DNA of 42,590 bases from an uncultured Fibrobacter sp. (GTDB taxonomy: Bacteria > Fibrobacterota > Fibrobacteria > Fibrobacterales > Fibrobacteraceae): contig NZ_CAMVDO010000026.1 in NCBI RefSeq assembly GCF_947166265.1, positions 1 through 42,590 of the forward strand, written 5' to 3'. Each line of letters starts with the position of its first letter. The stretch's first letter is position 1. Shown in pieces: positions 16,071 through 37,201 of this stretch. Both the position numbers and the translations under genes were made by a program. Below the pieces are notes generated by a model. The model was not told where the DNA came from. It did no database searches and saw only the letters and a list, made by a program, of their open reading frames with translations.

Positions 16071-16186
16071 GTCATTCTCGACCGAAGGGAGGCCGGACAG
16101 CACTTGGTTACTTGTAACCTTAGTGCGCATGGTCTCCAGACGGGGAAAATCCAGTGCTGGATCCCGTCGCTGCGCTCCAGGATGAC
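16071..16186 (+). repeat. 116-bp MITE-like element, copy 1
   Basis: Begins GTCATTCTCG and ends CCAGGATGAC, giving 5-bp inverted ends GTCAT/ATGAC, with an internal GGTTACTTGTAACC palindrome. A second 116-bp copy at 37086 differs at about five positions by eye. No open frame of interest. It sits between cobA-hemD and cbiX-met8. Confidence 0.85.
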
Positions 16187-23909: not shown

Positions 23910-23970
23910 GTTACTAGAAAAATCAACTAAAAAAACTAGTAGCTAGTAACTAGTAACTAGTAACTTACTA
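23906..23970 (+). repeat. Period-7 CTAGTAA repeat upstream of the motor operon
   Basis: CTAGTAA occurs three times in tandem (23943-23963), followed by the near-complement CTTACTA and preceded by AAGTTACTAG, so the tract can also fold on itself. It ends 10 bases before ATG 23981 and occupies the leader. Confidence 0.75.
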
Positions 23971-23980
23971 TATTAAAATC

Positions 23981-24811
23981 ATGAATTTCTTTAAATCTTT
24001 ATTGAGCTCCGCAGCTCTATTTGCTCTTTGTGCCTGTGACGGGAATGAATTCGTTCTTGCTTTCAATACCCAGAACGTTCAGCCTCAAACCTATTATCTT
24101 GAAGCGTCCTTGAATGCGGTTCTTCCGACGCACGATTCCATTACTGGAACGCCTGAATCGATGAATACGCACCTAAATGTACGTGCCACGAATTCGCTCT
24201 TGACTGCATACGATGACGGTTCGGCGAAATTCCAGTTGAAAATCGATTCTGTCGACTACAAGTCCGACAAACGTTCTGTCGAGGAATTCCGCAGCATGGA
24301 ACGTTACATGGCTACGGAACATTTCCAGTTTAAGATGGGGACGGATGGTGCAATCCGCGATCCGTTTATTCAGGATTCTGTGATGCTTGGAACCGAAGCA
24401 CTTGACCTGATCCGCATATTCCTTAAGGTTCAGCCGCTTCTGCCGGGCAAGGCGGTTCGACTGGGTGAAACTTGGGAACGTCCTGTTGAAATTCCGGGGG
24501 CATCCGGAAAGACGGTCGTCTACAAGTCATTCACTCTCGAAGACCAGTATGTGCATGACGGAATCCAGATGGCAAAGATCGGCATGAACCTCAAGTATAA
24601 AGAAATTGCCGATACGACCTCTGATCTCCGTATGGAAAGCAAGGGCTTTATTGTGGGAACGGGAACGATTCTTTTCGATATGACTCACGGCATTATCTCC
24701 AACGTCAAGATGGAATTGACCGGAGACCTGAGTGTGAACGATATTGTTGCGAATAGTGTCATTCCGGATATGCACGTCATCCAGAAGATCAAGTTGAGGA
24801 GTGAAATTTGA
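23981..24811 (+). CDS. Lipoprotein, first gene of the ZorAB-like motor operon
   Basis: Encodes 276 residues. The signal peptide ends at lipobox LCAC (Cys about residue 19, MNFFKSLLSSAALFALCAC), then DGNEF, so it is a lipoprotein. The mature part is beta-rich with alternating strands (THLNVRATNSL, AKFQLKIDSVDY), a central segment ETWERPVEIPGASGKTVVYKS, and VGTGTILFDMTHGIISNVKMELTGDL near the end. The strand pattern LGETW followed by a late ...GxxxFD...GxxxxxxxxL resembles uncharacterised DUF6263-like lipoproteins; this is by eye only. The stop TGA overlaps the TTG start of the next gene, which supports operon membership. Confidence 0.78.
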   Translation: MNFFKSLLSSAALFALCACDGNEFVLAFNTQNVQPQTYYLEASLNAVLPTHDSITGTPESMNTHLNVRATNSLLTAYDDGSAKFQLKIDSVDYKSDKRSVEEFRSMERYMATEHFQFKMGTDGAIRDPFIQDSVMLGTEALDLIRIFLKVQPLLPGKAVRLGETWERPVEIPGASGKTVVYKSFTLEDQYVHDGIQMAKIGMNLKYKEIADTTSDLRMESKGFIVGTGTILFDMTHGIISNVKMELTGDLSVNDIVANSVIPDMHVIQKIKLRSEI

Positions 24812-25527
24812 TTTTGAAGATTAAAAAAGTGGTGGGGGTGTTGGTTGCCTGTGCTTGTGCCTGGGCTATTGCAGGGGAAATGCCTTTTCCGCAAATCGAA
24901 AACGGCAAGGTGAAACTGGTGCTGGCGGATAGCCCTTACCTGTTGGAACAGGGTGCTGTTTTTTCGGCGAACGATACTTTGGAAATTGAACCGGGCGTTA
25001 CGGTTTTGATGGGCGAGTATGCGAAACTGATGTTCCGTGGTGCGGTCAAAATCATTGGCTCCGATTCGGCTCCGATCGTTTTCCGTAGTGCCGATTCGAC
25101 CAAGAGCTGGAATGGCCTCCATTTTGTTTCGGCGAACCGTCCGTTTGAAATAAAGAATCTCGTTATCGAGAATGCTTTCCGTAATACGGTGTTCCGTTCC
25201 AAGGGCATCCTTGAAAACGTGAAACTCGTGAACAACTACTACGGCCTTTGGATAGACGAAGCTCCTGAAGTTTATTTGGCCCGGTGCGAATTCGTGCGCA
25301 ACCGTTTTGCTCTTTCCATTCGTGCAGGGCAGGTTGTTTCGGCGGATACGAAAATTTCGAACAATGTTTACGGACTCTATCTTGAACCGGGTGGAAAGTT
25401 CGAAGGCGACAGAAGCTTGATCAAGAACAACCTTGAAGCGGATGTCAGGAACGAATCCGAAGAACTCGCCGCAAAGGGAAAGCGCGTAAACCGCAATATT
25501 TGGCACCGTATCGAAACGGCTTTCTAA
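24808..25527 (+). CDS. Secreted right-handed beta-helix protein
   Basis: Encodes 239 residues. The TTG at 24808 follows AGGAG (24797-24801) by 6 bases and overlaps the previous stop; a second TTG (24814) is possible. The signal peptide KKVVGVLVACACAWAIAG ends near residue 22. The mature part has short parallel-helix coils: NGLHFVSANRPFEIKNLVIENAF, ILENVKLVNNYYGLWI, ARCEFVRNRFALSIRAG, TKISNNVYGLYLEPGG, like NosD/pectate-lyase-type beta-helices. There is no catalytic carbohydrate-active motif. A periplasmic or surface partner of the lipoprotein and motor is inferred from the operon. Confidence 0.8.
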   Translation: MILKIKKVVGVLVACACAWAIAGEMPFPQIENGKVKLVLADSPYLLEQGAVFSANDTLEIEPGVTVLMGEYAKLMFRGAVKIIGSDSAPIVFRSADSTKSWNGLHFVSANRPFEIKNLVIENAFRNTVFRSKGILENVKLVNNYYGLWIDEAPEVYLARCEFVRNRFALSIRAGQVVSADTKISNNVYGLYLEPGGKFEGDRSLIKNNLEADVRNESEELAAKGKRVNRNIWHRIETAF

Positions 25528-25536
25528 GGGGTTTTT

Positions 25537-26445
25537 GTGCAAGAGTCTTTTCGCAGGTCCATTCGCAAGATGACGGGCAACAGCGTCCGTCTTTCGGTGC
25601 GTCCGAACCGCTCGACGATGATGGCGACTCTTTCTCAGTCGATGATGGTGACCTGGTCGATTGTTCTGCATGAACACTTGGATGCAATGTTGAACGACCC
25701 TGCGGTAAACGTGGGAACGACAGAATTGATTTCGTTTAGCGAAACCGCCTGGAAACTTTCGGATTCAAGCTTTCCGCAGATTATTGCCGATGCGAATAAA
25801 CTCTACGACGAATTCCGCACCAAGTGGATGCAGCGCTTTTCGACGGACGAGGTGATGCGCCTTCTCTTAGAAGGTGGCGATTTTCTGCATCATGACGAGG
25901 AAAAGGGCTGGGCGTTGACGGTCAAGAATAATAAGCAGGACATCAACGCGTTCTATTCGGCGACGATTCACCTGCTGGTGAGCGATGCCGAACCCTTGTT
26001 CGTCCGCATGCACGGCCGTGTGATGCAGCTCCAGGAAAAGCTCTGCAAGTATTGGCATTCCGAAAGTGCCGTGGATGCGGTTTCCAAACTGCTCCCCAGT
26101 TTGGAAGCATCGCTCCGTGACAAGGAAAACGCCATGGTGGTGTCGCTTCGCAGCTCGTTGAATAGCCTTGCGAAAAAGCGCTTTGCTGCGGCCTTCAATA
26201 CGAAGGGCCCTGCCCATTACTATAGCTCGGCAGTTTCCTGCGCAAGAAATGTAGGGCGTTTCTGGAATCCGCATTACGCTTACGAAAATGGATTCCTCGC
26301 CTTTACCGATGACTTTTGTGATTATGCCCGTGGACTCACCATTCAGATTATTGAGTGGTACCAGAGCAAGTGGGCCTTGTTCCTGCGTGGATTCTCGCGC
26401 GGTCAGTTGAATTTATTTGAAACAGCGGGACTTTCAAAGTCCTAA
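25537..26445 (+). CDS. Unknown soluble helical protein of the motor operon
   Basis: Encodes 302 residues, GTG start at 25537, 9 bases after the beta-helix stop. No signal peptide and no membrane segment, so cytoplasmic. Predicted mainly alpha-helical, with Trp/Met-rich stretches (TMMATLSQSMMVTW, KLYDEFRTKWMQRF, EWYQSKWALFLRGFSRGQ). No motif recognised. It is the only soluble cytoplasmic member upstream of the MotA-like gene and could contact the long cytoplasmic tail of that protein, which is speculation. The gene ends 13 bases before the MotA-like start. Confidence 0.7.
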   Translation: MQESFRRSIRKMTGNSVRLSVRPNRSTMMATLSQSMMVTWSIVLHEHLDAMLNDPAVNVGTTELISFSETAWKLSDSSFPQIIADANKLYDEFRTKWMQRFSTDEVMRLLLEGGDFLHHDEEKGWALTVKNNKQDINAFYSATIHLLVSDAEPLFVRMHGRVMQLQEKLCKYWHSESAVDAVSKLLPSLEASLRDKENAMVVSLRSSLNSLAKKRFAAAFNTKGPAHYYSSAVSCARNVGRFWNPHYAYENGFLAFTDDFCDYARGLTIQIIEWYQSKWALFLRGFSRGQLNLFETAGLSKS

Positions 26446-26458
26446 ATGCAGGTGTAAT

Positions 26459-28252
26459 ATGAAAAATGCATTTCACGTTATTTTGGCTCTTACGGTGGTG
26501 GGAATCCTCGCCTTGTTGGTTGCAGCTCTGTATTTTGGAGCACCGCTTTTCGGCTGGATTATCATGGTGGCCATCTTTGCCGTGTTCATCGGTGAACAGC
26601 TGGTGGCCCTCAAGACGGTCAAGCAGGTCGTTGCCGAAAACGAAATCCTTGAAACCTGCAAGAACCGTGGCGGTTATGTTTCGGGAGACGGTGTTGTCGC
26701 CAAGCGAGTCGCCCTTGCGCAGAGCCTGCTTGCCAAGAAAATTCGCCTCGATTCTTCGATGGCCTACGAAGTTCTTTCGAACAGTGTTGGAATCTCTGTT
26801 CCGCGTAGCGCCGGTGGCTCCGTGATTCTGCTTGGCCTTATGGGTACTTTCTTCGGTTTGATGTATTCCGTGGCGACAGCGGGTGGGGCTATTGACAACT
26901 CTACGACGCAGGGAACTCTCGATACGATTCAGCTCTTGTTCCAGAACATGAAGGGAATTTTTGGTACGAGCCTTTGCGGCTTGTTTGCCGCCCTGATTCT
27001 GAATGCTAGCCGCAACATGATGATTGCCTCGCGCGAAGCTTTTGTGGCGAAACTCGATGCTTACACTCTTGATTTGCAGGGGAATAGCGAGGCCGAAGAA
27101 AGTGAAGAAGCTCGTGCGAAGGATGAACTGGAACGTCTCTTTGATTCTGTCGAGAAAAATCTGTCTACGGTGGCATCTTCTGTAAAGGAAGGCCTTTCGG
27201 GCGTTGTCGCAATGGTGGGCGAGGAACTTGCCGCGACGACGGCCAAGCTGAACGACTCCCTGGCTTCCGCTGTTGCGGGCATGAACAAGTCCGTTGAAAA
27301 CCTGGGCGCCTCTGTGAGCGGTTCTCTTTCGGGTGCGTTTACTCCGATGGAACAGAATATCAAGACGCTTTCTGCTTCCGTGGAATCGATTCCTGCAAAG
27401 CTTGACGAAAAACTTAATGGAATTTCCTCGACACTGAACGGCGGCCTCGAAGGAATTTCTTCTGGAATCGAGAAATCGCTTGAAGATGTTGCTGGTAGTG
27501 TCGAATCTGCTCTTGCGAAGGTGGCGTCCGATGTGAAGGCTGGCCTTGACGGTGTTGCTGCAGCGACGGCCCAGGCGATGGAAGGTTCTACGAAGGATAT
27601 CGCTTCTGCTGTTTCGGAACAGGTCAAGCAGTCGAATGAACAGTGGAATTCCTTTATGGAACGTCTTGCTGCCGAAACTTCTGCCAATGTGGATAGCCAG
27701 AAGGAAGGTCTCGAAACGCTCAAGAATGTTGCCCTGCAGGTGGCTGAAAAGGCTCAGGCGGGTTCTGCAGAACTTTCTCAGTCCGTTGCCGAAAAGCTCT
27801 CGACACTTTCTTCCGATATCCTCGGCGCCTTCCAGAAGCTTTCCGAAACTTCTGCCGTGTTGCTTGAAGCCCAGAAGGCTCTCACCGAAAGCATCGACAA
27901 CCGCGTGGTCAAGGAAAAGGAAGCGACGGATGCGCTCGGTGGAAACATCGTGGAAACTGCAGAACTGATGCGCGTGAACCAGTCCGAACTCAGCGCGAAC
28001 CTCGAAATGTTGCGAGCCGGTCTCGAAACGATTCTCGAAAAGCTTTCGGGTGATACCGCGGAACGCGAAGAGGAAGAAAGCTTCGTGGAACACCTCAACC
28101 AGTCTCTCGAAGCATTCCACGAGCGCGCAAGCGAAGTGCTTATGGAAAATGCCGTCAAGACGCAGGAAATCTTGCTCGAAGTTTTGGAACAGACGCAGCG
28201 TAGCCCGGCGGTGTCCGCGGCTCCTGCTGAACAGCCTAAGGTCGAGGGCTAA
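26459..28252 (+). CDS. MotA/TolQ/ExbB-family (ZorA-like) proton-channel protein with long cytoplasmic tail
   Basis: Encodes 597 residues from ATG 26459; a start 14 codons earlier overlaps the previous gene. Membrane segments at about 5-26, 30-50, 119-141 and 166-184. SVILLGLMGTFFGLMYSV and GIFGTSLCGLFAALIL are the two conserved helices of the MotA/ExbB channel. Residues about 185-597 form an almost uninterrupted helical, heptad-like tail (AMVGEELAATTAKLNDSL, SVENLGASVSGSLSGAF), far longer than TolQ or ExbB and resembling the ZorA tail of Zorya systems. It lies 3 bases before the MotB-like gene, so the two would form a 5:2 stator-type motor by family analogy. No zorC, zorD or zorE is next to it. 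Confidence 0.85.
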   Translation: MKNAFHVILALTVVGILALLVAALYFGAPLFGWIIMVAIFAVFIGEQLVALKTVKQVVAENEILETCKNRGGYVSGDGVVAKRVALAQSLLAKKIRLDSSMAYEVLSNSVGISVPRSAGGSVILLGLMGTFFGLMYSVATAGGAIDNSTTQGTLDTIQLLFQNMKGIFGTSLCGLFAALILNASRNMMIASREAFVAKLDAYTLDLQGNSEAEESEEARAKDELERLFDSVEKNLSTVASSVKEGLSGVVAMVGEELAATTAKLNDSLASAVAGMNKSVENLGASVSGSLSGAFTPMEQNIKTLSASVESIPAKLDEKLNGISSTLNGGLEGISSGIEKSLEDVAGSVESALAKVASDVKAGLDGVAAATAQAMEGSTKDIASAVSEQVKQSNEQWNSFMERLAAETSANVDSQKEGLETLKNVALQVAEKAQAGSAELSQSVAEKLSTLSSDILGAFQKLSETSAVLLEAQKALTESIDNRVVKEKEATDALGGNIVETAELMRVNQSELSANLEMLRAGLETILEKLSGDTAEREEEESFVEHLNQSLEAFHERASEVLMENAVKTQEILLEVLEQTQRSPAVSAAPAEQPKVEG

Positions 28253-28255
28253 CGG

Positions 28256-28891
28256 ATGCGCTTGAAACAAGACGATAACAGCAATCCTTGGATGGCGTAC
28301 ACGGACCTGGGTGTTGCCCTGGTTTCGCTGTTCATCCTTGCGTTTGTGGCGATGGCGACCCTTAAGGAGCAGAAGGCTGAAGACCTGACGCGTACCGAAG
28401 AGGAAGTCCTCAGCTGCCAAGAAGAAATGCGCAAGATTGCGGCGGAACGCAATGCGCTATTATCCAAGAGTTTGCAAACCTCCATCGAAGCGGGCCTTAT
28501 CGCTCTTGAAGACGGTAAGATCCAGATTCAGGCTTCTTTCCTGTTCCCGATTAACGGAGCTGACCTCACCAAGGAAGGCGAGGGCGTGATTCGCGGCATT
28601 AGCAAGGGGCTTCTGGAAGCGCTGGATTCTACCGACGTGATTATGGTGAGCGGCTTTACTGACGATACTCCGGTGAAGTCCAAGACCTACACCAACTGGA
28701 ATTTGTCGACTGAACGTGCCGTGAACGTGGTAAAGACCTTGATTGCGCAGGGTTTCCCGCCGGATAGGCTTTTTGCGGCTGGCTTTGGCGAACACATGCC
28801 CAAGTATCCTAACGATAGCGAGGAACACCGCCGCCTGAACCGTCGCGTGGAAATCGGTGTCACCCCGCTGCAGAAGATGGAGACGAAGTAG
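28256..28891 (+). CDS. MotB/ZorB-like protein with OmpA C-terminal domain
   Basis: Encodes 211 residues. A single N-terminal membrane helix (about 15-36) carries Asp17 in NPWMAYTDLGVALVSLF, at the position of the proton-accepting Asp of MotB (WADMMTLL-like) and ZorB. A short linker (37-75) precedes an OmpA/MotB peptidoglycan-binding domain: FLFPINGADLT, GFTDDTPV, NWNLSTERAVNVV, FAAGFGEHMP, and NRRVEIGV, with the conserved Asn/Arg pattern for peptidoglycan. It begins 3 bases after the MotA-like gene. Complete and intact; most likely stator subunit of a membrane motor of unknown cargo. Confidence 0.88.
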   Translation: MRLKQDDNSNPWMAYTDLGVALVSLFILAFVAMATLKEQKAEDLTRTEEEVLSCQEEMRKIAAERNALLSKSLQTSIEAGLIALEDGKIQIQASFLFPINGADLTKEGEGVIRGISKGLLEALDSTDVIMVSGFTDDTPVKSKTYTNWNLSTERAVNVVKTLIAQGFPPDRLFAAGFGEHMPKYPNDSEEHRRLNRRVEIGVTPLQKMETK

Positions 28892-28945
28892 ATGTTGTCC
28901 TGGAGCGTAGCGACGGAATCCATTTTATAAGTTTGTTGATTAAGT

Positions 28946-29602
28946 ATGCAAGAGCGCCTAGAAAACATTCGTCAGAATATCGATGCTATCCGCAAGAGCG
29001 GAAAGCTGCCGCATTGGCGTATGGTCTACGCAGATAACTTGCTGAATCGAGCGGGCGAATATGTTGCCGTAGATCGGCTGCCCGAAGCCCAAATGGTGGC
29101 GGACAAGTTGGAACGCTGGCTCAAGACGCATTCTCCGCGTGTAGATTCTTCGGAACGCTTTGCCGAGAATCCGATGGTGTTCTGGAATGCAGATATGCTT
29201 TTGGCGATGTCTGCTAAGCTCAAGCAGACTCTTCTTGAAAAGCGTCAGCTGGTGCCGTCTACGGAGCGTGATTCAACGATGCGCAGGTTGACTGTTGTCG
29301 AGGAATGGATTCGTGGCGGAAACCTTCTGCAGGCCCACGACGAACTGCTCCTGCTCCGTACGGCGCTTATTGCCCGTTTAAGGCGCAGCTACCGCGCTCG
29401 CCTTGTTGCTACGGACTTGTATCGTGGAACCGTGGTGCAACCTGCCGGTAGCCTTGTCGGCCCCTATAACGCTCTGCACACATTGGAAGAAACCTTCCAC
29501 GTGGTGGGTGAGCGCGATCCGATTTGGATTGAAGACTTCCTTGAAATCTATAACGACCTGTTCCGTATCGTGGAACGCCTGGTCCCTCAAGACAAAAAGT
29601 GA
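28946..29602 (+). CDS. Unknown helical cytoplasmic protein, last gene of the motor operon
   Basis: Encodes 218 residues. No signal peptide or membrane segment. Helical throughout with heptad-like runs (ERLENIRQNIDAIRKSG, RLPEAQMVADKLERWLK, MLLAMSAKLKQTLLEKRQL), consistent with coiled coils, and an acidic/aromatic end (WIEDFLEIYNDLFRIVERL). No family recognised. It follows the MotB-like gene by 54 bases containing a fragment of the GTCAT-type repeat (CCTGGAGCGTAGCGACGG at about 28899), so membership of the operon is likely but less tight than for the first five genes. A bidirectional terminator lies at 29671. Confidence 0.7.
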   Translation: MQERLENIRQNIDAIRKSGKLPHWRMVYADNLLNRAGEYVAVDRLPEAQMVADKLERWLKTHSPRVDSSERFAENPMVFWNADMLLAMSAKLKQTLLEKRQLVPSTERDSTMRRLTVVEEWIRGGNLLQAHDELLLLRTALIARLRRSYRARLVATDLYRGTVVQPAGSLVGPYNALHTLEETFHVVGERDPIWIEDFLEIYNDLFRIVERLVPQDKK

Positions 29603-29716: not shown

Positions 29717-30964
29717 TTAGAAGCCGATACTCAGCTGGCCCATGTAGATACGTTCTTCGTCCTGGCCGGTGTAGTAACCGAGTTCTTCTGCCCAGGTAGC
29801 GAATTCAACAGTGAAGAAGCGGAGAACTTCAAGTCCGAAACCCGCCGCAGGGTAGCCACCCTTGAAACCGCCCGAAAGACGGAGGGCGAGGGCGCGAATC
29901 GCGTTGTTGTATCCGGGCCATGCAAGCAGGGTCTGTTCCACTTCCATACCGAAGTTGATGTGGGAAAGGAACTTGTAATTGTTTGTGCCGTTGATAGCGT
30001 CCGCGTAGTCTACTGCGACGTTGAACTTACGTCCGAAACCAGTATTCTTGTTGAAGAAACGGGGGCTGTAGTTGACACCTGCGGTAATGTTCGGGGTAAT
30101 TTTGTCTCCGGCTAGATCCTTGAAGTAGATGTCGCGAACGGAAAGACCTAGGCGGACTTCGCGTGCAATCTGGTAAAGAACGCCGAGATCCATACCGAAG
30201 GATATTGCATCCATGTCGATGAGTTCGTCGGCGACGTCATGATAGCGGTCTTCCAGGGTGTCTTGGATGGCGCTGTAGTTGATCACCGTGACATACATGT
30301 TTTCAACTTTATGACGCTTGGCTATTTTAAGGCCGATACCTGCGGAGAACTCGTCGGTAAAGCCGTATGCCGTACCGACCTGAGCCACACCGTCAACGTA
30401 GAAAGTGTCAATCACAATTTGCGGAATGATGAGGCCTGCATCCATATAGGGTGCAACGTTTCCGTCAATCCAGATGGCGCCACCAAAGTTGTGGAAAGCA
30501 AGTTCTGCGTCCATCTTGATTTTCATGGTCAGGTACTTGTGGTCGTAGCTGTTCATCTTGTGAATCAGCTCGGGGTGAGCCGCTAGGGAGTCCATCAGCA
30601 CGTTAGAAGAACTGAGGTGATGTTCCTTTGCGTCGTCATGAGCCTGATTGTAAAGCTTTTGAACATCTTTTGCAACGTTGTATGTAGAAAAGTATGTCTC
30701 GAAGGGGCCGGCACCACCGAGGTTCAAGCGCATATCACCGATGTTTCGGGGGTAGTAACCTTGTTCCGGGCGCTCCTCGTAGTTGCCGAGCCTGTTAATC
30801 TGGCTCAAGCCTGCGTAGTTGAAGTAGATTGCTTCTTTGTCGTCTACCAATGCCACATGGGCATTACCCATAGCTTCTGCTCTGATCGAACGGTGCGTCG
30901 GAGCCTTGGCTGCAAAAGAAATTGCCGTGAGTGTAGCAAGCAAAATAACAAGGGAACGTTTCAT
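29717..30964 (-). CDS. PorV/TraF-like outer-membrane protein
   Basis: Encodes 415 residues with a signal peptide (MKRSLVILLATLTAISFAA). The opening RAEAMGNAHVALVDDKEAIYFNYAGLSQ is typical of the PorV/TraF/UPF0164 group of FadL-like barrels (RSIAMGGAxxAxxDDxxAxxxNPAGL). The rest is beta-strand rich and ends with an aromatic SIGF strand, as OmpA/BamA-targeted barrels do. Such proteins in Bacteroidota and Fibrobacterota often serve as accessory outer-membrane proteins in secretion. Its start shares one base with the stop of the TPR lipoprotein gene, so the two are translated from one message. Function inferred from family only. Confidence 0.8.
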   Translation of the reverse strand: MKRSLVILLATLTAISFAAKAPTHRSIRAEAMGNAHVALVDDKEAIYFNYAGLSQINRLGNYEERPEQGYYPRNIGDMRLNLGGAGPFETYFSTYNVAKDVQKLYNQAHDDAKEHHLSSSNVLMDSLAAHPELIHKMNSYDHKYLTMKIKMDAELAFHNFGGAIWIDGNVAPYMDAGLIIPQIVIDTFYVDGVAQVGTAYGFTDEFSAGIGLKIAKRHKVENMYVTVINYSAIQDTLEDRYHDVADELIDMDAISFGMDLGVLYQIAREVRLGLSVRDIYFKDLAGDKITPNITAGVNYSPRFFNKNTGFGRKFNVAVDYADAINGTNNYKFLSHINFGMEVEQTLLAWPGYNNAIRALALRLSGGFKGGYPAAGFGLEVLRFFTVEFATWAEELGYYTGQDEERIYMGQLSIGF

Positions 30965-32352
30965 TAGTTGTTCCTCCCTTCAAACCACTTCTCGAAGTCC
31001 TTTTCGCTGTAGTTCTTCCAGCATCCGCCAATGTTTTTCTTTCGAAATTCCAAATCGTATTTCAAATTGTCCGGATCGGTGTCATGGGCGACGTTGTACT
31101 TGAGAATCCTGAATTCCGTATCGCTGAGATTGTTGGGGTTCCATTCGATTTCGTCTGCGACAATGAACTTGAACCGATGGTCGTTTTTCTTAACGCGGTC
31201 GGTGTATTTGGAGTAGACGAATTCCCATTCGTTGTCTTCCGCTTTTTCGCCGTTCATGTCGATGTCGATTTTTTCGTACTTCGAGTTCGGGCCCGCTTCC
31301 TTAACAACACGGAGGTCCCTGATCGAGGTCTTGTTGTGGGCGATATTGTTCATAATGGTGACGTCGTCGTACTTGATCGGATTTGTCTTGTCGCGGACAT
31401 CTTCGTCAATTTCTCCGTCGCCATCGTTGTCTTCGCCGTCGTAGACTTCTTCGTCAACGCAACCGTCGCCGTCGTCGTCGACAATGTCGCTGTAGCCGAA
31501 CTGACCGATGATGATGTTCATGGTCTTTTCTTGCTTGTCGGGATTGTCTTCGTCAATTTCTGTTTCTTGTGCAAGAGCTGCGCACATGGCCTGAATGGCC
31601 TTGTTCTTTGCATCGTCGGTTAGATTGTCGAAGCCTTCCAGGTAGGTGTCGAACAGGGTCGCCATACTTTCGGAATTGACGGCACAGGTGTTGAACACGC
31701 CGTTGAATGCTGCGACCGCTTCCTTTGAATCGCCTTTCATTCTGTTGAGAACCGTTTCCATGTCGCACTTGTTTTCGCTCTTAGAGTCGAAGGAACATTC
31801 ATCCATTCCTGAAGTCGTCTTGCGGAGGACGAGCATCGTTTTCATCATCTGGATAACCATATAGCCGTCGGAAATGTACTTGTAGGTGATTTTTCCGTCG
31901 GTCAATCCAAGCGTATCGCGTCGAATGAGTTCCTTGGCGAGGGTTTCCACCGTGTCCAGTGTCACCTCAAGGGTGACGGCCAGGGATTCCGGCATATTGG
32001 CGAAGGGAACGGTTTTGCCACCTTCACGGCTCGAGTTTACGTACTGGAGTAGCGAAAATACGTTGGTCTTCTCGTTGGAGTTCAGCTTTCGGCTGAGGAT
32101 GGACTTCATCAGGCCGAGCCAGGCTTCGGAGTAGGTGGAGTCAGCGGCGATAGCCTTGTTGAAGTATTCTTCGGCTTCGCTATATTCGTTGTCGCGGAAC
32201 TTGATGTAGCCTTCGTAGGAAAGGGCGGCAGCATCATCGCTCTTGATGTTTACGCTTTCGGTAGGGTTAAAAATGTTGCATCCAACGATGCCAAGACTTA
32301 ACACCAAGGCGGCGGATGCCCATACAATTTTGGATTTAAGTACGTTTTTCAT
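30964..32352 (-). CDS. TPR lipoprotein with calcium-loop-like (TSP3-type) acidic repeats
   Basis: Encodes 462 residues. The signal peptide ends at lipobox IVGC (Cys about residue 25). Residues about 42-90 form a TPR-like helix pair (AALSYEGYIKFRDNEYSEAEEYFNKAIAADSTYSEAWLGL, given here in overlapping pieces). In the middle, VDDDGDGCVDEEVYDGEDND and GDGEIDEDV carry D-x-D-x-D-G loops as in thrombospondin type 3/EF-hand-like calcium sites (about residues 295-320). The C-terminal ~140 residues are unassigned and end with FEKWFEGRNN. Encoded immediately upstream of the PorV-like gene with a one-base overlap, suggesting a lipoprotein/barrel pair at the outer membrane. Confidence 0.8.
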   Translation of the reverse strand: MKNVLKSKIVWASAALVLSLGIVGCNIFNPTESVNIKSDDAAALSYEGYIKFRDNEYSEAEEYFNKAIAADSTYSEAWLGLMKSILSRKLNSNEKTNVFSLLQYVNSSREGGKTVPFANMPESLAVTLEVTLDTVETLAKELIRRDTLGLTDGKITYKYISDGYMVIQMMKTMLVLRKTTSGMDECSFDSKSENKCDMETVLNRMKGDSKEAVAAFNGVFNTCAVNSESMATLFDTYLEGFDNLTDDAKNKAIQAMCAALAQETEIDEDNPDKQEKTMNIIIGQFGYSDIVDDDGDGCVDEEVYDGEDNDGDGEIDEDVRDKTNPIKYDDVTIMNNIAHNKTSIRDLRVVKEAGPNSKYEKIDIDMNGEKAEDNEWEFVYSKYTDRVKKNDHRFKFIVADEIEWNPNNLSDTEFRILKYNVAHDTDPDNLKYDLEFRKKNIGGCWKNYSEKDFEKWFEGRNN

Positions 32353-37085: not shown

Positions 37086-37201
37086 GTCATTCTCGACCGA
37101 AGGGAGGCCGGACAGCACTTGGTTACTTGTAACCTTAGTGCGCATGGTCCCCAGACGGGGAAAATCCAATGTTGGATCCCGTCGCTGCGTTCCAGGAGGA
37201 C
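37086..37201 (+). repeat. 116-bp MITE-like element, copy 2
   Basis: Same length and orientation as copy 1 (16071), differing at about five positions by eye, including the right end (GGAGGAC instead of GGATGAC). Confidence 0.85.

Follow-up and report, generated by a model that had tools for sequence, protein, structure and literature searches.

A Zorya-III-like motor operon in Fibrobacteraceae and its motor-less relatives

A stretch of 42,590 nucleotides from an uncultured Fibrobacter sp. (contig NZ_CAMVDO010000026.1; its full length is referred to here as the window) carries a six-gene operon in which a MotAB/ZorAB-like motor pair is combined with two envelope proteins and two cytoplasmic helical proteins. 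We consider it fairly probable that the operon encodes a rotary motor of the ZorA5B2 type, divergent but Zorya-III-like, together with a DUF3348-like protein (hel1), a DUF2894-like protein (hel2), and two envelope accessory proteins, and that it serves as a resident envelope-sensing device. According to open reading frame (ORF) calls on the window, the six genes are co-directional on the + strand, as are all features within them given below, and span positions 23981-29602 with intergenic distances of -4, 9, 13, 3, and 54 nt. This agrees with a preliminary description of this DNA, in which six consecutive genes with gaps mostly of 13 bases or less were taken as an orphan motor accompanied in its operon by envelope proteins and helical partners. 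In order, the genes encode a predicted lipoprotein (lip; 23981-24811, 276 residues, weakly DUF6263-like), a secreted right-handed beta-helix-like protein (bhx; 24808-25527, 239 residues), hel1 (25537-26445, 302 residues) at the place taken by DUF3348 in Zorya III, a ZorA-like channel subunit (26459-28252, 597 residues), a ZorB-like stator (28256-28891, 211 residues), and hel2 (28946-29602, 218 residues) in the DUF2894 position.

Zorya type III is defined by a Zorya motor pair flanked by DUF3348 and DUF2894 proteins, without ZorC, ZorD, or ZorE (PMC8565338). The order DUF3348-A-B-DUF2894 was found at 56 of 60 Pseudomonadota loci, and betaproteobacterial loci are annotated as DUF3348-DUF802-OmpA-DUF2894. 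The preliminary description had excluded Zorya on the grounds that ZorC/D or ZorE partners are missing. As type III lacks these proteins, this exclusion does not apply; type III, which had not been considered, has DUF3348 and DUF2894 proteins where the "unknown helical proteins" sit. In the published nomenclature, the DUF3348 protein is ZorF and the DUF2894 protein is ZorG (PMC8565338); PADLOC-DB (PDLC00652-00658) uses the opposite labels, ZorG3 for DUF3348 and ZorF3 for DUF2894. Of the Zorya types, type III is the least understood. The papers found contain neither a structure nor a mechanism for it, and a sequence search of the Protein Data Bank returned nothing related to its two partner proteins.

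The motor pair and its helical partners

The ZorB-like protein matched the PADLOC model for ZorB3 (PDLC00651) at 1.8e-43, compared with 4.6e-20 for ZorB1 and 3.3e-5 for ZorB2. Its best NCBIfam match was PRK09040 (4.6e-41), which covers the full length and scores 140.6 bits against a cut-off of 194. The conserved Asp and the peptidoglycan-binding domain attributed earlier to a MotB-like stator were both recovered. Asp17 (28304-28306), the putative ion-site residue, lies in an FTDL/YTDL motif and is invariant in a ZorB alignment of Fibrobacterota and Betaproteobacteria, and residues 96 to 196 (28541-28843) form an OmpA-like domain (PF00691, 5.2e-16). The Asp17 equivalent in Zorya I/II, ZorB D24, is crucial for defence (PMC11890865). 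The MotB_plug model scored 13.8 bits, under its cut-off of 24. FSU_0151, a 23.9-kDa OmpA protein from Fibrobacter succinogenes proteomics (PMC4619616), was considered as a zorB orthologue. Its mass agrees with that of the orthologues (23.95 to 24.02 kDa), but its isoelectric point of 6.65 and grand average of hydropathy of -0.566 do not (orthologues, 5.4 to 5.6 and -0.27 to -0.30, respectively), and identity is not claimed.

The ZorA-like ORF begins with ATG, with a possible upstream TTG at 26417. Its product matched PADLOC ZorA3 (PDLC00647) at 1.8e-14, a hidden Markov model score to which the low-complexity tail contributes in part, and its channel core aligned to DUF802/ZorA3 at 5e-15 (hhalign). 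A regular expression and the conservation profile located the channel motifs LGLMGTFFGL in the third transmembrane segment (TM3; residues 125 to 134, 26831-26860) and FGTSLCGL in the fourth (TM4; residues 168 to 175, 26960-26983), both of the type found in the channel helices of MotA, TolQ, and ExbB. The cytoplasmic tail extends from about residue 205 to residue 597; the long tail of the preliminary description therefore stands, at about 390 rather than about 410 residues. Among motor-bearing proteins, column conservation was high at the distal tip of the tail (residues 481 to 575, 27899-28183; mean of about 0.7 to 0.8) and also in the channel core, unlike the mid-tail (residues 211 to 390; 0.21 to 0.37), which makes the tip a candidate docking site. 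Tail tips of Fibrobacterota and Pseudomonadota did not align significantly (hhalign, E 0.05), and a tip motif common to both phyla is suggested by by-eye resemblance alone. Opposite zorA lies an antisense ORF of 690 residues (26348-28420), probably a by-product of codon bias.

Neither helical protein had a significant match in Pfam or PADLOC or a convincing NCBIfam family, and the same was true of divergent relatives. Fibrobacterota profiles were ranked against 4312 ORFs from Pseudomonadota loci, 60 of which encode DUF2894 proteins. The top 13 matches of the hel2 profile were all DUF2894 proteins, while nine reversed, shuffled, or block-shuffled control profiles gave nothing comparable, their matches being scattered. 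Likewise, global alignment of hel2 with DUF2894 gave 8.6e-5 over 201 columns (hhalign), compared with 0.51 for the reversed control, and the C-terminal hel2 motif GPYN...DPIWIEDFLEIYNDLF (29459-29563) aligned with GPLNS...SPxYLxxF of DUF2894. From these profile comparisons, hel2 can be assigned with good confidence as a remote DUF2894 homologue. The Pfam models for DUF3348 and DUF2894, run over 167 genomes of the phylum, gave no match above the cut-off for either family and none at all for DUF2894. The one sub-threshold DUF3348 match (17.7 bits) lies in a genome from another class of the phylum (G036, contig 26, 21660-21854; locus L181).

The hel1 gene starts with GTG, and its product is left unmatched by the Pfam and PADLOC models of DUF3348, which score a known member at 1.6e-83. 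In the ranking described above, 18 of the 20 top matches of the hel1 profile were DUF3348 or DUF2894 proteins, both mixed. AlphaFold2 models of hel1 and of a DUF3348 protein have a common order of elements, namely, two short helices, one long helix, a loop, two long helices, a loop, and one long helix. The DUF3348 model had no Foldseek match at E <= 0.001. Both models match four-helix bundles such as the MxB stalk (Z 8.2, root mean square deviation 5.7, 175 aligned for DUF3348; Z 12.2, root mean square deviation 4.8, 202 aligned for hel1), and these matches fall within the helical-bundle background. Overall, hel1 is a probable remote homologue of DUF3348.

Distribution in Fibrobacterota and the motor-less relatives

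Orthologues of zorB (E of about 1e-111 or lower) are encoded in all 44 genomes of the rumen genus Fibrobacter with a completeness of at least 90%, and also in every other genus of the family apart from two (g2 and g4). After filtering for contamination, hel1 was found in 68 of 68 genomes of the class at least 90% complete, and none of the matches listed came from other classes of the phylum. Nearly all of the approximately 35 family loci examined preserve the order lip-bhx-hel1-ZorA-ZorB-hel2, far beyond what chance would give, and most have tadA upstream of the operon. Conservation of the six-gene order in related genomes had been set as a check beforehand, and the neighbouring genes are indeed conserved with the motor pair across the family. 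Furthermore, protein distances between the operon genes, tadA included, correlate with r values of 0.74 to 0.98. The four-gene unit of Pseudomonadota has almost no common flanking genes, even among close relatives. Mobile defence systems are marked by a patchy distribution and a defence-island context, and neither was found for the Fibrobacter operon. The operon of Fibrobacteraceae is apparently a resident one passed on by vertical descent, as opposed to a defence island that is exchanged between genomes.

In genera g2 and g4 of the family and in three further families of the class (f3, f4, and f5), hel1 is followed by a gene for a protein with a coiled-coil tail and then by hel2, with no zorB between the tail gene and hel2. 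Where scanned, these tail proteins had only one or two membrane segments and lacked the TM3 and TM4 motifs. The patterns used for the motifs are strict and also missed two divergent motor-bearing members (L067 and L068); the missing zorB and the missing extra membrane segments therefore weigh more heavily as evidence. Searches of the motor-less genomes with zorB returned only OmpA-domain or flagellar-type MotB proteins. Flagellar-type MotB proteins are encoded in two class genomes (L187, 698-1378, DWLISYADMVTLL; L191, 6305-6991, DEWLGTYSDMVTLL). The tail-tip motif NQxE...ExLxENxxKxQE is kept, with small variations, in the aligned motor-bearing and motor-less forms, and a DUF6263-like lipoprotein gene stands upstream of hel1 in four f4 genomes that were examined. 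As the motor is present both in the Pseudomonadota and in the order that contains f1 and f2, we infer that it was lost in g2 and g4 and, separately, outside that order; a gain within the order is the alternative.

The most interesting aspect of these data is that the helical partners and the tail tip have been retained across the class even where the motor is missing. One tentative explanation, which we hold to be rather unlikely at present, is that hel1, hel2, and the ZorA tail tip form a universal core module of the class with a cellular role of its own, to which the motor is an optional addition lost in several lineages. If so, Zorya III would be a resident device for envelope signalling that is widespread and has phage defence as only one of its uses. 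The motor-less homologues in any case offer a direct route to the function of the partners and to the question of whether a motor is required.

Possible function and rival explanations

The lipoprotein has the lipobox (A)LCAC at its N terminus and matched PF19777 below the cut-off in a Pfam scan (E=6e-4). Its gene is the first of the operon in family loci, and it is remotely matched in class-level relatives (E 1e-12 to 1e-16). The bhx gene starts with TTG and overlaps lip by 4 nt, and the N terminus of its product resembles a signal peptide. Its beta-helix similarity is weak (PF13229, 6e-5; NosD, 1.9e-3; both below cut-off). It is the second gene and is conserved in Fibrobacteraceae loci, with the exception of L064, where bhx was not detectable.

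Zorya I/II require ZorB D24, binding to peptidoglycan, and the tail of ZorA (PMC11890865), and ZorB is thought to grip peptidoglycan that is pushed toward the membrane (PMC12904381). By analogy, deformation of or damage to the envelope would cause the OmpA domain of ZorB to engage peptidoglycan, after which ions would pass Asp17 and the ZorA ring would turn around ZorB. The long five-helix tail of ZorA would transmit this motion to the cytoplasmic side; there, the conserved tail tip might hold or release hel1 and hel2 and in this way pass on the state of the envelope. On the envelope side, the lipoprotein and the beta-helix protein perhaps gate ZorB or set its sensitivity. The 5:2 assembly, the ion flow, the docking at the tip, and a role of the envelope proteins as sensors are all putative elements of this scheme.

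Several observations weigh against such a device. Both partners are sub-threshold in every curated model, and the local profile-profile match between hel1 and DUF3348 is not significant (hhalign, E 0.04). Likewise, hel1 matches DUF3348 and DUF2894 alike, the choice of DUF3348 resting on position and helix order, and its AlphaFold2 model is of low confidence (predicted local distance difference test score of 61, compared with 87 for the DUF3348 protein). The motor-less homologues furthermore indicate that the partners can exist without rotation, which may not be the core activity.

A true anti-phage system, in which Zorya III is kept as a core first-line defence in Fibrobacteraceae and responds when phages inject their DNA through the envelope, is possible but somewhat doubtful. 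Zorya III of Stenotrophomonas, cloned in Escherichia coli, lowered plaquing for at least one phage tested (PMC8565338), and core presence is compatible with defence, as Zorya III is cited among the highly conserved defence systems of Ralstonia solanacearum (PMC13064858). However, Pfam and PADLOC scans found no recognisable nuclease or other effector among the operon products. The surrounding genes, named from the ORF sequences of the window, are housekeeping genes, and no defence island is apparent among them. In addition, every near-complete Fibrobacter genome has the operon zorB, with no turnover, and whole families carry motor-less forms. A housekeeping envelope machine without relation to phages, acting in outer-membrane or peptidoglycan homeostasis or in cell-shape control, is a serious contender, although we would stop short of calling it probable. 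It would have common ancestry with Zorya III, and its apparent defence activity elsewhere would be secondary. The presence of hel1 in each near-complete genome of the class, the conserved site adjoining tadA, the two added envelope proteins, and the linked lipoprotein, which is present also in some motor-less genomes, all point in this direction, whereas the varied contexts of the four-gene unit in Pseudomonadota fit a mobile or autonomous unit. Taken together, core presence, a fixed site, the absence of an effector enzyme, and the existence of motor-less relatives speak for a resident role in the cell.

Motility or surface transport, as proposed in the preliminary description, found no support. 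Motors of the 5:2 type do drive gliding and type 9 secretion (PMC11890865), and Fibrobacter is known to adhere to fibre. However, a new motor for motility, adhesion, or surface transport is improbable, as the operon encodes no periplasmic force-transmitting partner (TonB/TolA/GldM-like), the ZorA tail should face the cytoplasm, hel1 and hel2 have no recognised motility relatives, and canonical ExbBD/TolQR-type pairs are encoded elsewhere in the genome. These canonical genes also bear on whether the pair could be TolQ/TolR of a Tol-Pal locus, an identity that we regard as negligible in likelihood. Window ZorA has a distant similarity to the MotA_ExbB family of just 13.6 bits and ZorB is OmpA-type and not ExbD/TolR-type, while seven canonical MotA_ExbB/TolQ genes with ExbD/TolR partners lie on other contigs.

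Further features of the locus were recorded. The 54-nt gap between zorB and hel2 contains a dispersed repeat, GTCCTGGAGCGTAGCGACGGAATCC (28897-28921), with near-copies at 16159-16183 and at 37174-37198 (- strand), none being expected by chance. A short tandem array of AACTAGT (4.6 copies, 23934-23965) lies between tadA and the lipoprotein gene. Downstream of the operon, two convergent genes at 29717-32352 (- strand) encode an outer-membrane TraF_2-like protein and a tetratricopeptide repeat (TPR) lipoprotein; both remain next to the operon in several Fibrobacter loci.

Comparison with known systems

The motor pair shares its Asp ion site and OmpA-type peptidoglycan anchor with flagellar MotAB. 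However, ZorB has no DEWLxxYSDM-type MotB signature of the kind present at L187 and L191, ZorA has a long tail, and no flagellar genes occur within the operon. TolQR/ExbBD have similar GTxxG-type channel motifs in TM3 and TM4 but differ in the type of their B subunit and are represented by the canonical pairs elsewhere in the genome. PRK09040, a MotB-like "hypothetical protein", matches ZorB over its full length but below the cut-off. Zorya I/II (ZorA5B2 with ZorC/D or ZorE) have in common with the operon the motor pair, the cytoplasmic tail, and a peptidoglycan-binding ZorB, but the Fibrobacter operon is without a helicase or nuclease effector, and the ZorB1 and ZorB2 models score lower than ZorB3.

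The operon is most like Zorya III, with which it shares a ZorB3-class stator, a ZorA3-class long-tailed channel, and, probably, remote relatives of both partners. Its hel1-ZorA-ZorB-hel2 order equals DUF3348-A-B-DUF2894 when hel1 and hel2 are taken as the partners. It differs in that the DUF3348 and DUF2894 models fail on its partners, in its two additional upstream envelope genes, and in being a fixed locus and class-wide core with motor-less relatives in sister families. As both partners fail the formal, model-based definition, the operon is not filed as a full member of Zorya III. The existence of a nearly universal version, apparently passed on vertically, in a phylum where it escapes standard models raises the question of whether all Zorya-III loci should be read as sets of defence genes. 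The "new trans-envelope machine" proposed previously is better described as a resident, divergent member of the Zorya III kind or a sister to it. Overall, the operon is real and well conserved; it varies the Zorya III architecture in a new way and is not a categorically new machine.

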